From Rhodoplanes elegans (GTDB taxonomy: Bacteria; Pseudomonadota; Alphaproteobacteria; Rhizobiales; Xanthobacteraceae), in contig NZ_NHSK01000063.1 of NCBI RefSeq assembly GCF_016653355.1, forward strand, positions 1 to 60,230: a DNA stretch of 60,230 nt. Direction: 5' to 3'. The translations under genes and the position numbers were made by a program. Positions 42,556 through 48,248 of this stretch are shown piece by piece. The notes below the pieces were generated by a model. It made no database searches, was not told the DNA's origin, and was given only the letters and a program-made list of their open reading frames with translations. Within the stretch, counting starts at the first letter, position 1, and every line of letters starts with the position of its first letter.

Positions 42556-43881
42556 ATGTCACCGGTCCCGTCCTCCCCGCCACCGCTGTTCGTCGATCTC
42601 ACCACCGCGTTCCAGGAGCGCGGCCGCATCGCCCATGGCACCGTGCGGGTCGAGCGCGAGCTGGTCGGAGCGCTCGCCGAGCGGGCGATCGCCGGCCGCG
42701 ACGATCTCCGCTTCTGCCGCTTCGACCCGGCCGCCCACCGCTTCGTCGCGCTGACCGCCGCCGAGGCGCTCGCCGTGGTCCGCGCCCCGACCGAGCCGGA
42801 GCGTCGCCGAAAGCCGCGCCCGGCCTGGCGGTCGCATCCGCTGATGCAGCTCGGCCGCCGGCTCGAGCGCTTCGTGCGCACCGAGATCCGCGACCACTTC
42901 CGGCGCCGTCGCCGCGCCGTAGTCGAGGCCGTGGTGGCCCCGATCGGCGGGGCGGCGGAGATGTTTCCGGAGGGCGCCTGGCTGCTGCTGCCCGGCGAGC
43001 TGCAGCGGCACGACTTCGCCCACCTGATCGACCTGCGCCGCCGGCGCGGGCTGCGGCTCGCCATGCTGTTCTACGATCTGCTCGGCACCCTGCCGCCGGG
43101 CGATCCGCGCGCCGACGACCCGGACGCCGCCGACATTCCGTCGAGCGAGTTCATCCTGCGGCATGCCGCCCTCGTCCTGTCGATCTCGCGGTTCAGCGCC
43201 GATGCGCTCGCGGCCCATGCGGCGGAGCGCGGCACCGCGATGCCGCCCCTCACCGTGATCCGGCTCGGTCACCGGCTCGGCCCGGCCGCGCCGGACCTGC
43301 CGCCGGTCGACGGCCTCGCGCCGGGCGGCTTCGTGCTCACCGTCGGCGACGTCACGGGGCGCAAGAACCAGCGGCTGCTCACCGACTTGTGGGGCGATCT
43401 GGCGCGGGCGCGCGGCGGGCGAGTGCCGCCGCTGGTGATCGCCGGCCGGATCGGCCACGACGGCGCGCCGCTGGTCGCCGCCGTGACGGCCGATCGCGAC
43501 GCTGCGCCCGTGGTCCGCTTCCTGAGCAATGTCGACGACGGCCAGCTCCGCTGGCTGTACGCCAACTGCCGGTTCACGGCGTTCCCGTCCTTGTCCGAGG
43601 GCTTCGGCCTGCCGGTGGTCGAGAGCCTGGCGCTCGGCAAGACCTGCATCGCCTCCACGGCGACGGCGATTCCCGAGGCGAGCCAAGGCGCCGCCCTGCA
43701 TCTCGACCCGGCCGAAACGGCGGCCTGGCGACACGCGATCGAGACGCTGCTCGACGACGACGCGGCACTGGCGCGGGCCGAGGCGGCGATCGCCGACAAA
43801 TTCCGGCTGGTCGGCTGGGACGACACCGCCGCCGACGCCCTCGCCGCCGCCGACGCGGCACGGGCGGCGAGAAGCACCTAG
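42556..43881 (+). CDS. group 1 (GT4-like) glycosyltransferase
   Basis: A 441-residue GT-B glycosyltransferase. The C-terminal half has the GT4 hallmarks: GFVLTVGDVTGRKNQRLLTD (about 255-275), FTAFPSLSEGFGLPVVESLA with the two glutamates of the EX7E motif (about 344-363), and TAIPEASQGAALHL. The N-terminal acceptor domain is arginine-rich and less conserved. No membrane segment or signal is seen. The ATG at 42556 has no good ribosome site; another start slightly downstream is possible. It stands alone, so its product, perhaps exopolysaccharide or lipopolysaccharide, is a guess. Confidence 0.85.
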   Translation: MSPVPSSPPPLFVDLTTAFQERGRIAHGTVRVERELVGALAERAIAGRDDLRFCRFDPAAHRFVALTAAEALAVVRAPTEPERRRKPRPAWRSHPLMQLGRRLERFVRTEIRDHFRRRRRAVVEAVVAPIGGAAEMFPEGAWLLLPGELQRHDFAHLIDLRRRRGLRLAMLFYDLLGTLPPGDPRADDPDAADIPSSEFILRHAALVLSISRFSADALAAHAAERGTAMPPLTVIRLGHRLGPAAPDLPPVDGLAPGGFVLTVGDVTGRKNQRLLTDLWGDLARARGGRVPPLVIAGRIGHDGAPLVAAVTADRDAAPVVRFLSNVDDGQLRWLYANCRFTAFPSLSEGFGLPVVESLALGKTCIASTATAIPEASQGAALHLDPAETAAWRHAIETLLDDDAALARAEAAIADKFRLVGWDDTAADALAAADAARAARST

Positions 43882-43980
43882 AGCGGCCATAACGACGCAC
43901 CGAAGGACAAAAATCGTCGAAAAAATTGCAGAAGTGGATTTTGGAGCTTAACTTTCGGTCTCTTCCGGGAGATCGAAGAC

Positions 43981-45192
43981 GTGCTGTACCGTCTGGAGAT
44001 TGCCAACTTCTACTCGGTGCGCGACCGGCAGGTGATCGATCTGCGAATCGGTGACTCCGTGCCCGACGTGCCTGGTCGGTTCGACCCTCTGTTCCCTGGA
44101 TCAAAGGAACGCGCGCCCCGTGTCGTGGCCTTTTTCGGGCCGAACGCTTCGGGGAAATCGACAGTCCTAAAGGCCCTTGCGTTCGTTCTGTGGTTCGTTC
44201 GGGATTCCTTCCAGCGACAGCCGAACGTCGGCATCCCGTGCGAGTGCTTCAACGATACGGCAGCACAAGCCGAGCCGGTGCGGTTAGCGATCGAGTTCGG
44301 CGGGCCGCTCGACCCTGCCGTCGAGCCGGGCTCAGCCCCCATTGCCTATGGCACGTGGCGCTATGAACTGGCCCTGTTCATGTCGGATGGACGCTTCATC
44401 GTTACAGAAGAAAACCTTCATCAGAGAGCCAATGGGCGAGGCAGGTGGACTCGGGTTTTCGAACGCGAGAACGACCAAGTCAGTGCTGGTAAAGTGTTTG
44501 CACTTTCAGGATACTCGAAGGTGATCGACAAGGTGCGCGACAATGCCAGTCTCATCTCTACTCTGGCGCAATTCGATCATGTGCCGTCGTTGCGCCTGAG
44601 CGAAGCCGCGCGATCGGTCGTTGCCAACATCCTGGCGGATCGAACTGAGGTCGGGGACGATGCCGCGATCAAATACTACGCGGCAGATACCGCCGCCATG
44701 GAGGAGCTTAACCGAGACATCCAGCGGATCGACCTCGGCATAAAGAAAATGATCATCGTTCAAGGCCAAGCGGGACCACTTGCTTTGTTCGAGCACGAAG
44801 GACTGGAGCGTCCGATGCCCTGGGCGCTCGAAAGTCACGGAACTCGGACATTTATCCGCAACCTGCCCCTGCTGCAGATTGCGCTCGCCAGGGGGAGCAT
44901 GTCCATTGTCGACGAGATCGATCTCGCGATTCACCCACTCGTCCTGCCCGAGATCATACGTTGGTTTCATGATCCCGAACGAAACCCGCAACGGGCCCAG
45001 CTCTGGATGAGTTGCCACGCGGCAACTCTTCTCGAAGACCTTCAGAAGGAGGAGGTCTTCTTCTGCGAGAAGGACACGCGCGGTCGCACAAAGGTGTACG
45101 GGCTCCAGGACATTCGAAACGCGAGGCGTGCGGACAACCGCTATCGCAGGTATATGTCGGGCATGTACGGAGCAATCCCTCAGATCGGATGA
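43981..45192 (+). CDS. AAA15-family ATPase, RloA/AbiLi-like defence protein
   Basis: A 403-residue ATPase related to OLD, RloA and AbiLi. Walker A is GPNASGKST (53-61), the ABC-type signature ESHGTRTF (284-291), Walker B SIVDEIDLAIHP (308-319) and the histidine switch WMSCHAATLLEDL (343-355). The insert between Walker A and the signature is the coiled or lid region. The start is GTG at 43981, with GGGAG upstream. Its stop overlaps the next start (ATGA). Base composition falls to roughly 55-60% G+C, well below the neighbours, a sign of transfer. With the RloB-like partner it forms an abortive-infection-type pair, by analogy with AbiL and RloAB. Confidence 0.85.
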   Translation: MLYRLEIANFYSVRDRQVIDLRIGDSVPDVPGRFDPLFPGSKERAPRVVAFFGPNASGKSTVLKALAFVLWFVRDSFQRQPNVGIPCECFNDTAAQAEPVRLAIEFGGPLDPAVEPGSAPIAYGTWRYELALFMSDGRFIVTEENLHQRANGRGRWTRVFERENDQVSAGKVFALSGYSKVIDKVRDNASLISTLAQFDHVPSLRLSEAARSVVANILADRTEVGDDAAIKYYAADTAAMEELNRDIQRIDLGIKKMIIVQGQAGPLALFEHEGLERPMPWALESHGTRTFIRNLPLLQIALARGSMSIVDEIDLAIHPLVLPEIIRWFHDPERNPQRAQLWMSCHAATLLEDLQKEEVFFCEKDTRGRTKVYGLQDIRNARRADNRYRRYMSGMYGAIPQIG

Positions 45193-45746
45193 AACGCCGA
45201 CCGGCCTTCATTCCTCAACGCCGCCCGATCTTTCTCGGCTGCGAGGGGCCGAGCGAAGTGGGTTACGGCGCCCTGTTGAATCGATTTGCGCGCGATAAAG
45301 ACGTTCACATCCACATTCATGTCGAACCGCTCCAACCGGGCGCAGGCGACCCCTTCGAGCTTGTTCGACGCGCCGTTCAGCGCGTCGGGGACATCGAACG
45401 ACGGCGGGAGTCATTCGCCTGCAAGGCCTTGCTTATCGACATCGGCGAGCCCGACAAGATGGCCGCTGCGACCCGGCTCGCCAGCCAAGCAGGGATTTCG
45501 CATCTGATATGGCAGGTTCCGGATCACGAAGCCCTTCTCCTGCGACACTTCGATGGGTGCCAGGACCATCGCCCCCCGAAGGGAGAGTCGATGGCTGCAC
45601 TCCGTCGACGATGGCCCGAGTACCGGAAAGGTAGCAGTGCTTCTCAGCTCTCGGAGCGGATTCCCTTCGAGTCCCTGGTCCGGGTTTGTGCGGTCGAGGC
45701 ACGCTTGCGGGATTTCGTCATCGCGATTGGCCTGCTTTCACCTTGA
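45189..45746 (+). CDS. RloB/AbiLii-like protein, probable Toprim-type nuclease partner
   Basis: A 185-residue protein. Divergent RloB-family marks can be read in order: FLGCEGPSEVGY (15-26; relatives read CEGxxxExxY), an acidic strand LLIDIGEPDK (81-90), WQVPDHEALLLRHF (108-121; relatives read SNPxFExWxLxHF), and LRRRWPEYRKG (138-148; relatives read LPxYxKG). E19, D84 and E114 would be the metal-binding acids if it is a Toprim-like nuclease, which is inference. It overlaps the ATPase gene by four bases. The AAA15-RloB pairing is found in phage-defence loci such as AbiL and RloAB and parallels the AriA-AriB pair of PARIS. It is somewhat shorter than typical RloB. Confidence 0.75.
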   Translation: MKRRPAFIPQRRPIFLGCEGPSEVGYGALLNRFARDKDVHIHIHVEPLQPGAGDPFELVRRAVQRVGDIERRRESFACKALLIDIGEPDKMAAATRLASQAGISHLIWQVPDHEALLLRHFDGCQDHRPPKGESMAALRRRWPEYRKGSSASQLSERIPFESLVRVCAVEARLRDFVIAIGLLSP

Positions 45747-45765
45747 CTGGTCTGCACCCCTCTGA

Positions 45766-46953: not shown

Positions 46954-47066
46954 GCGACCTCCAGGCAGGAGGGGATCACGATCGGAACCGGGCGAACCCC
47001 GCCCGGTTCCTCCCTTCACCCATGCGCCGTCCGCGACCGCGGCGGAACCAGCGTCTTCAGAGCCGC

Positions 47067-47080
47067 TTGATTTTCGTCAA
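47067..47080. promoter_or_regulatory. FNR/NnrR-type binding box
   Basis: TTGAT-TTTC-GTCAA, a match to the TTGATnnnnATCAA consensus in nine of ten positions. It is extended to a GCTTGA/TCAAGC palindrome at 47065-47082. It lies 114 bases upstream of nnrS and 103 bases upstream of the cytochrome c gene, so it could serve either or both. Control by an oxygen- or NO-sensing CRP/FNR protein is inferred. Confidence 0.6.
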
Positions 47081-47182
47081 GCTTCTGGTCTTTTGCTGGC
47101 CGGCCCTTCGTCTTGTGGCCGGATCCCGCAGCCGGCCGGCTCGTCGGATCGTCCGTTTGGAACCAGGAGGGAAGAAGGCACG

Positions 47183-47569
47183 ATGATCACCAAAGCGTTC
47201 GTTATCGCATTCGCCTTGGCGGCCACCACCGGGATCGCCGCCGCCCAGGACGTCGCGGCCGGCGCCGTGTCGTTCCGCAAGTGCACGCCCTGCCACAACA
47301 TCGGCGAAGGCGCGACCAACAAGGTCGGCCCGGTGCTCAACGGCCTCGAGGGCCGCAAGAGCGGGCAGATCCCGGGCTTCAACTACTCCGAAGCCAACAA
47401 GAACTCGGGTCTCACCTGGGACAAGGCGACGTTCAAGTCCTACATCGCCGATCCGCGCGCCAAGATCCCGGGCACCAAGATGGTCTTCGCCGGCATCAAG
47501 AACGACAAGGAGCAGGACGACCTGTGGGCGTTCCTGATCCAGTACGGGCCGGACGGAAAGAAGAAGTAG
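47183..47569 (+). CDS. class I periplasmic cytochrome c (cytochrome c2/c550-like)
   Basis: A 128-residue c-type cytochrome. The signal peptide MITKAFVIAFALAATTGIAA is cleaved near AAA-Q (residue 21). Haem attaches at C34, C37 and H38 (KCTPCHNI), and the sixth ligand is M100 in GTKMVFAGIK. The fold is that of mitochondrial-type cytochrome c, a soluble electron carrier between the bc1 complex and an oxidase or reductase. AGGAGG and GAAGAAGG precede the ATG at 47183. It is divergent from nnrS behind an FNR-type box and ends in a strong terminator, so a role in low-oxygen or denitrification electron flow is plausible. Confidence 0.95.
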   Translation: MITKAFVIAFALAATTGIAAAQDVAAGAVSFRKCTPCHNIGEGATNKVGPVLNGLEGRKSGQIPGFNYSEANKNSGLTWDKATFKSYIADPRAKIPGTKMVFAGIKNDKEQDDLWAFLIQYGPDGKKK

Positions 47570-47885
47570 TCGATCGACCACGCTTCGGTCGTTCGACCCG
47601 ATCGGATCGCGTCATCGCGCGCCGTGGCTCCGCCTCGGCGCGCTTTCTTTTTTGAGCAACGGTCCGAGCGGGCCGACCCACCCGGTCGGATGATCCCCCT
47701 CGGGCAGGTGCCGCGGCGAGGCGCCCCCGCCGCACACAGAATCCAAGCTCGACAGGATCGACCGAATCTTACGCTGTAATTTTAAGAAATACTTCGTGAT
47801 GCAGCGCGGGATCGCTGCCATCTTGTGCGCACAATTCCCCGATTAAACGCGGTCTTCACGCAACAACATGGGGACTATACAGCGC
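47570..47885. other. intergenic region between cytochrome c and rlpA
   Basis: A 316-base gap with the terminator at 47617-47653, then an AT-richer stretch (TTACGCTGTAATTTTAAGAA, near 47769-47788) that probably carries the rlpA promoter. I see no further gene. Confidence 0.55.
47617..47653 (+). terminator. Rho-independent terminator of the cytochrome c gene
   Basis: A perfect 8-base stem (GCGCGCCG, 47617-47624, with CGGCGCGC, 47636-47643), an 11-base loop and the T-rich tail TTTCTTTTTT (47644-47653). Confidence 0.88.
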
Positions 47886-48248
47886 ATGGCGATGAACTTT
47901 GTACGGTATCTCGCAGTATTGATCGCACTATTCGCTGTCGTGAATTTTTCGACTCGCGCCGAGGCCTTCACCCAGTCGGGCATTGCTTCGGTCTATTCGG
48001 GCGGCAGGACCGCCAATGGCGAGCGCGCGCATGCCGGAGGCATGACGGCCGCCCACAAGCATCTCCCCTTCGGGACGCGGGTGCTGGTCACCCACCGCCG
48101 GACCGGCAAGTCGGTGGTCGTCCGCATCAACGACCGCGGCCCGTTCGTGCGCGGCCGGGTGATCGACCTGACGCCCGCCGCGGCGCGGTCGATCGGTCTG
48201 GGTTACGGCCTCGCGCCGGTGTCGATCGCGGTGCTCGGCCGCGACTGA
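47886..48248 (+). CDS. septal ring lytic transglycosylase RlpA family protein
   Basis: A 120-residue exported protein. The signal peptide is [20 protein letters not shown], cleaved near AEA-F (about residue 27). The mature part is a double-psi beta-barrel: [20 protein letters not shown], then [20 protein letters not shown] and [20 protein letters not shown]. The aspartate in NDRGP is the likely catalytic acid of RlpA, which trims peptidoglycan strands. There is no SPOR domain and no lipobox, so this is the short secreted form. The start could be 47868, 47886 or 47892; 47886 gives the best signal peptide. A terminator follows directly. Confidence 0.88.

Follow-up and report, generated by a model that had tools for sequence, protein, structure and literature searches.

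The window analysed here (60,230 nucleotides of a Rhodoplanes elegans contig) carries a horizontally acquired, self-contained abortive-infection module of the AbiL type, with an effector that is probably attenuated or inactive. We give this reading as a whole a probability of roughly 0.78. The pair of genes, an AbiLi ATPase and an RloB-family partner, is an AbiL-type module. The partner is without the second aspartate of its DxD motif, an unusual effector loss that an earlier note on this DNA, made from the letters alone, overlooked.

Two overlapping genes in an insert of low G+C

The module consists of two plus-strand ORFs, the ATPase gene (43981-45192; GTG start, 403 aa, stop included in the coordinates) and the partner gene (45189-45746; ATG start, 185 aa, stop included). 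They join through a 4-base ATGA overlap, which bears out the coupling described in the earlier note. Since homology runs along the full length of both ORFs, chance is ruled out for either.

Base composition sets the insert (43871-45761) apart, with a G+C of 0.592 vs 0.702 for the remaining window. The lowest-G+C stretch of 1891 bp in the window begins at 43889 (0.591), and the lowest such stretch beginning before 42000 or after 45762 has a G+C of 0.660. GC3 is 0.69 for the ATPase gene and 0.68 for the partner gene; that of the upstream glycosyltransferase gene is 0.925. The A+T-rich leader before the ATPase gene (43882-43980, plus strand) contains runs of A and has a G+C of 0.475. These values confirm the foreign composition and A-rich leader that had been remarked on from the sequence. 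No match to a sigma-70-type promoter and no Rfam family were found in the module, leader included. Elsewhere in the window, the second-lowest 1-kb bin (47001-48000, G+C 0.620) lies around the cytochrome c gene.

The module is missing from the equivalent site in congeners

The module was gained horizontally. One congener (G001, locus L109) is homologous to the window as far as 43870 and again from 45762 onward, and only 6 bp of G001 sequence separate the two matches. The acquired module therefore spans 43871-45761 (about 1891 bp), with a left edge that is uncertain by about 10 bp because the glycosyltransferase stop lies at 43881. In a second congener, G002, the glycosyltransferase and NnrS genes adjoin and the pair is absent. 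The partner was found in none of five congeners, one of which is only 58% complete. The earlier note had proposed comparative genomics at this site and had named a pair fixed and vertically inherited in close relatives as the outcome that would speak against a defence islet; the empty sites and the absence from these five congeners show that the pair is not fixed.

Transposition was rejected as the entry route, with neither terminal inverted repeats nor a target-site duplication evident at the junctions. The five flanking genes scanned encode ATP synthase alpha, ATP synthase delta, a glycosyltransferase (GT4), NnrS and cytochrome c. The glycosyltransferase gene directly upstream of the pair (42556-43881) is itself variable: G001 and G002 have it, and in G003 and G004 nothing matching it lies between the genes for ATP synthase and for NnrS (loci L109-L112), so at least two changes have taken place in this slot.

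The pair is conserved, sparse and horizontally spread

Relatives were collected by a scan of genome contigs from 84,980 species (99 relatives, 80 kept), a plasmid search (18 records, of which 13 are typed as conjugative; 8 used for counts and a ninth fetched later) and a search of IMG/VR (2 relatives). Together, the 80 genome, 8 plasmid and 2 IMG/VR loci give 90 that were read, some of which repeat one plasmid or sequence. The ATPase gene lies immediately upstream of the partner gene in 87 of the 90, and the remaining 3 are at a contig edge. A 4-base overlap joins 80 of these 87 pairs (ATGA in 77), where the partner start picked was the one nearest to a 4-base overlap.

By record title we take 64 of the 80 genome loci to be alphaproteobacterial, with genera assigned partly from recall. 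The remaining genome loci are from Acidobacteria, Gammaproteobacteria, Burkholderiales and Melainabacteria-type bacteria, or are unplaced. An annotated defence or toxin gene lies within 6 kb in 6 of the 8 plasmid loci, and the genes near plasmid copies include NACHT, TIR, SIR2, CHAT, caspase-family, VapC and PemK/MazF genes. On one Agrobacterium plasmid (L013, NC_015184.1 30764-43312) the pair is stacked with NACHT, TIR and SIR2 genes. Two IMG/VR viral contigs (L096 and L097) carry the pair, which may therefore travel on prophages or satellites; a phage collection searched with the module DNA, at the nucleotide level only, gave no match.

Close to home, the cassette is rare. The partner was detected in 1 of 60 related genomes, its own, and in 5 of 385 genomes of the class sample, its own included. 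In the family sample of 296 genomes the partner profile gave a strong match only in its own genome and two weak matches elsewhere. The ATPase profile was matched at 1e-30 in 7 of 297 genomes of the order sample, and at 1e-60 in 4 of 385 (class sample) and 6 of 398 (phylum sample), with its own genome included each time. Loci L125-L127 are represented by their distant ATPases alone. The cassette is thus sparse and horizontally spread, in a subfamily that is widespread.

The upstream gene encodes an intact AbiLi-type ATPase

The ABC/AAA ATPase matches the PADLOC AbiLi model (PDLC02335) over residues 1-402 with an E-value of 8.7e-65; the next-best PADLOC model, AriA, is 146 bits behind (E 4.9e-20). 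Among Pfam models AAA_21 fits best (5.4e-17, over its cut-off), and the AAA15 identity first given to the protein is not borne out, as AAA_15 scores 15.2 bits vs a cut-off of 32.1. A PDB sequence search with the ATPase profile returned PtuA as its best match (4e-6).

The Walker A, ABC-type signature, Walker B and histidine switch recognised in the earlier note are present, the signature as a signature-like block and the switch as a candidate, all on the plus strand. Walker A reads GPNASGKS (residues 53-60, 44137-44160; G53-x-N-x-x-G-K59), and G53, N55, G58 and K59 are found in 80/80 relatives. The same is true of S285, G287 and T288 in the ABC-signature-like block ESHGTR (residues 284-289, 44830-44847; S-H-G-T at 285-288), and of D311, E312 and H318 in the Walker B block (residues 307-319, 44899-44937). 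At the candidate histidine switch, H346 (45016-45018), 71 of the 80 relatives have His and 9 have Gln. Across the protein, the window ATPase retains all 61 columns that are conserved in at least 95% of the 80 relatives.

The downstream gene encodes an RloB/AbiLii-family partner

The partner (45189-45746, plus strand) is assigned to its family more firmly through its relatives than through its own sequence. The window protein matches Pfam RloB (PF13707) at E 0.0012 and 19.5 bits, under the 31.5-bit cut-off, and RloB is its sole match among those listed at E<=1. Its match to PADLOC AbiLii reaches only E 0.01, and AbiLii is the sole PADLOC match among those listed up to E 10, where HMMER filters discard most matches above about 0.1. 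In a 9-row alignment of the window partner with eight plasmid relatives, all nine members, window included, match both models: E is 0.01 or less for RloB, with 6e-10 as the best value, and 0.1 or less for AbiLii, with 4.8e-12 as the best. A 59-row partner-family profile (window included) was compared by hhalign with three AbiLii/RloB proteins that all have an AbiLi-type ATPase as their partner; the match had 98% probability, an E-value of 1.6e-13 and 20% identity across 157 columns. The HMM comparison that the earlier note suggested therefore places the ATPase best with AbiLi and the partner with AbiLii/RloB at family level, the window sequence alone being weak.

The AlphaFold2 model of the partner (pLDDT 95.8, pTM 0.90) has a predicted b-a-b-a-b-a-b topology with a Glu after strand 1 and an Asp after strand 3, which is consistent with the Toprim description in the portion of PMC6755086 available. 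The Toprim Glu-after-strand-1 feature is present, as E19 sits in the loop after the strand at residues 12-18 of the model. In a Foldseek search of BFVD, the top match was to the predicted structure of an RloB-like phage protein, with probability 1.00, TM 0.65/0.58 and E 1.3e-3, just over 0.001. The absence of any structural match to RloB or Toprim folds, which the earlier note had said would tell against it, is thus not what structure prediction returned.

Matches to solved structures were weaker. Foldseek against the PDB gave nothing at E<=0.001 for either the window model or the intact relative L019. For the window model the OLD Toprim 6nk8 ranked fifth, among generic alpha/beta folds (E 0.011, TM 0.43), and the best 50 PDB matches listed for L019 contained no recognised Toprim. 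A PDB sequence search with the partner profile yielded one irrelevant match (E 0.24). As no solved-structure fold match was obtained here, the Toprim reading of the partner as a probable nuclease effector is based on its topology, on where the motifs lie and on an HHpred statement in the literature; in the excerpt of PMC10440598 available, RloB is related to OLD_TOPRIM and AbiLii is named as the toxic effector.

Four RloB blocks had been claimed for the partner, and three of them stand. Motif 1, GCEGxSE (residues 17-23, 45237-45257, plus strand), includes E19, G20, S22 and E23, each found in 82/82 other partners. Motif 3, the E..H block DHEALLLRH (residues 112-120, 45522-45548, plus strand), has E114 and H120 in 82/82, and motif 4, W142..Y145.K147 (45612-45629, plus strand), has each of its residues in 81/82. 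The fourth block, DxD, reads D84-I-G86 and is considered below. The partner had also been described as short and as a distinct subtype. At 185 aa it is of usual length, with 87 uncut relatives measuring 179-208 aa (85 of these 182-197). The subtype claim was overstated: public annotation already gives 11 of the 18 plasmid matches the name RloB family or RloB domain-containing, and the pair is an unremarkable representative of this RloB-annotated subfamily. The AbiL/RloAB logic that was proposed for the pair is supported by the AbiLi match, the AbiLii/RloB profile match, the RloB-like structural match and the conserved pairing.

The partner lacks the second aspartate of DxD

The Toprim DxD that follows strand 3 is absent from the window partner. 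The altered block reads D84-I-G86-E87 (45438-45449, plus strand), and the next loop is 4 residues shorter than that of the relatives in the 9-row alignment. DxD is present in 82/82 other distinct partners, so that the second Asp is absent only in the window. This 83-row count comprises the window and 82 distinct others, after removal of L026 (same plasmid as L009), the identical L034, L035, L048 and L008, the interrupted L076 and L079, and L088, which is cut at a contig edge. Loci found by the ATPase alone kept DxD in 10/10, and these may overlap the 82. The two patterns that fetched genome relatives contained the GCEGxSE and WQ..E blocks, with E114 within the second, and not DxD; the invariance of those two blocks is therefore partly due to selection by the search.

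General decay of the partner was rejected as an explanation. Relative to its own ATPase, its divergence is ordinary, ranking 24th of 81 with the most diverged first; the mean residual is -0.008. Of 21 columns that 78 or more of the 82 others conserve, it retains 19, and the two it has lost are D86 and a C-terminal Leu (now Val). As the gene is not decaying overall, two options are left: a recent loss, or a protein that still functions. Deletion of four residues in frame, as one event, would account for the absent Asp as well as the gap. A compensating pair of frameshifts was rejected as the origin of the odd block because the following residues (about 88-103) still fit the family. The source genome is a draft assembly of 320 contigs, and the missing Asp may be an assembly error.

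Related proteins bear on the likely effect of the loss. In the Burkholderia OLD nuclease, waters bridge the second DxD Asp to metal A; according to the portion of PMC6755086 available, single ligand substitutions, this Asp included, had no discernible effect in vitro, and triple ligand substitutions abolished cleavage of linear DNA. The available part of PMC12409363 states that a single Toprim mutant of AriB, E26A, loses tRNA cleavage, and we infer that E26 is equivalent to partner E19. In an AbiLii-type protein from a Klebsiella plasmid (L113:1449-2069), the residues aligned at DxD are D-Q-E, suggesting that Glu may replace the second Asp. Having weighed the substitution tolerance of OLD, the AriB E26A result and the D-Q-E of L113 together, we consider impairment of the window effector, beside an intact ATPase, probable rather than proven. 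No report of an AbiLii or RloB protein without DxD was found in the titles and abstract openings searched.

Disarmed, active or maintained as a variant

One explanation for the altered effector is that the module was recently disarmed and is heading for loss, selection against a costly effector having acted after acquisition; we regard this as plausible, at a little under even odds. It would agree with the retention of all 61 strict positions by the window ATPase and with broken partners elsewhere. The partner has in-frame stops in L076 (same genome as L122, by coordinates) and L079, and is split across two frames in genome G134; in four R. ruizarguesonis plasmids the partner match ends at about residue 60 (L120 examined). 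The ATPase ORF is uninterrupted in L076, L079, G134 and L120. However, the ATPase match in one of the R. ruizarguesonis plasmids (CP140833.1) is likewise in two pieces, draft assemblies can hold false stops or shifts, and the searches are biased to intact ATPases. Because this ascertainment favours intact ATPases, the pattern of broken partner and intact ATPase is suggestive only.

Two observations on these loci may be set down separately. Partners broken by in-frame stops, frame change or truncation, each beside an uninterrupted ATPase ORF, are found at L076 (=L122), L079, L130 and L120. In L076 and G134, the break lies close to codon 74, a little ahead of the DxD strand.

It is less likely, and on balance we doubt, that the module is fully active, with the shortened loop tolerated and the metals held by E19, E23, D84 and E114 or by the neighbouring E87. 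The near-complete retention of the other strict partner positions, with no sign of decay, and the high-confidence predicted fold despite the short loop are both in keeping with an active protein, as is the tolerance of the equivalent single substitution by the OLD nuclease in vitro (PMC6755086, in the part available). Against this stands the Asp itself, kept in 82/82 distinct relatives although the 58 of them that were aligned are no more than 32-48% identical to the window partner; such retention indicates that selection maintains the Asp in general.

We think it improbable that selection preserves the partner, without its DxD, as a working effector of the RloB family beside an intact AbiLi, its site being rearranged or reduced to one metal (for nicking, binding or a changed target). 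If that were true, an altered catalytic centre would not prevent AbiL modules from functioning, or from being of use to the host.

Comparison with known systems

The closest known system is AbiL, the abortive-infection system of a Lactococcus lactis plasmid, which has the same gene order of ATPase then RloB-family partner. The window ATPase matches AbiLi across the whole protein, and the partner family matches AbiLii by models and profile. Directly downstream of the ATPase, where AbiL has AbiLii, the window thus has an AbiLii protein at family level, with a weak match for the window sequence alone: the sequence of the window partner has little in common with that of AbiLii-type proteins (E 0.01), in a comparison that covered proteins other than the lactococcal one. 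The partner subfamily has GCEGxSE vs CEGEKTE in the AbiLii-type L113 and L116, and the window partner differs further in missing the second DxD Asp.

The partner is also what links the module to RloA/RloB, the R-linked ORFs of type I restriction-modification operons. Unlike those, the module has no type I restriction genes around it; membership of such an operon was rejected, with no hsd genes among the five flanking genes scanned. Septu was likewise rejected, as the partner shows no sign of the HNH nuclease PtuB among its Pfam matches listed at E<=1, where RloB stands alone. OLD nucleases have the ATPase fused to Toprim in one gene, whereas the module has two genes. Judged by spacing rather than by superposition, partner residues E19/E23, D84 and E114 resemble the Burkholderia ligands E400/E404, D455 and E508 (PMC6755086, in the portion available); the window partner differs from OLD in being without the second DxD Asp, and its Foldseek match to 6nk8 is weak.

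A housekeeping role outside defence, such as DNA repair, is very unlikely: the ATPase has weak SMC/RecF-type N-terminal matches in common with repair proteins, but the pair is patchy and horizontally spread, is found in none of the five congeners and has defence or toxin neighbours in most of the plasmid loci counted. Membership of PARIS is the least credible reading, because AbiLi outscores AriA so clearly and the sole PADLOC match listed for the partner is AbiLii, even though the ATPase does match AriA and the two-gene logic is the same. The parallel with PARIS drawn in the earlier note thus survives as shared logic, separate genes for an ATPase sensor and a Toprim-type effector, and fails as membership. 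In PARIS these are the ABC ATPase AriA and the Toprim tRNase AriB (PMC12409363, in the part available), an analogy for the module; no AriB is among the partner matches listed.

Proposed mechanism

Going by its family, the AbiLi ATPase would sense phage infection and would hold or activate its translationally coupled partner, a putative metal-dependent nuclease of the RloB family (Toprim-like). Detection of phage by the ATPase would free the partner or turn it on. The partner would then halt the infection by cleaving a nucleic acid of the cell or the phage, which might be tRNA, as for AriB, or DNA, as for OLD. In the window copy, the second DxD Asp is gone through an apparent single in-frame loss of four residues, and the effector would probably be attenuated or inactive next to an intact ATPase.

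Published work may offer partial support for such a sensor-and-nuclease mechanism. In the portion of PMC3985639 available, the Fusobacterium AbiLii was toxic in E. coli and the lactococcal AbiLii was non-toxic there, and the Fusobacterium AbiLi failed to neutralise the Fusobacterium AbiLii. No trigger or target of AbiL or RloB was found in the parts of the literature searched.

Implications for the family

A confident family call need not imply a working defence. Here, an AbiL-like pair has an effector without a residue that is kept by 82/82 of the relatives compared, and the window copy may have reduced activity or none. About 90 natural pairs are available in the subfamily, a few with a broken or altered effector beside an intact ATPase. 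These pairs provide a ready comparison for the cost of the effector to its host and for the importance of individual residues.
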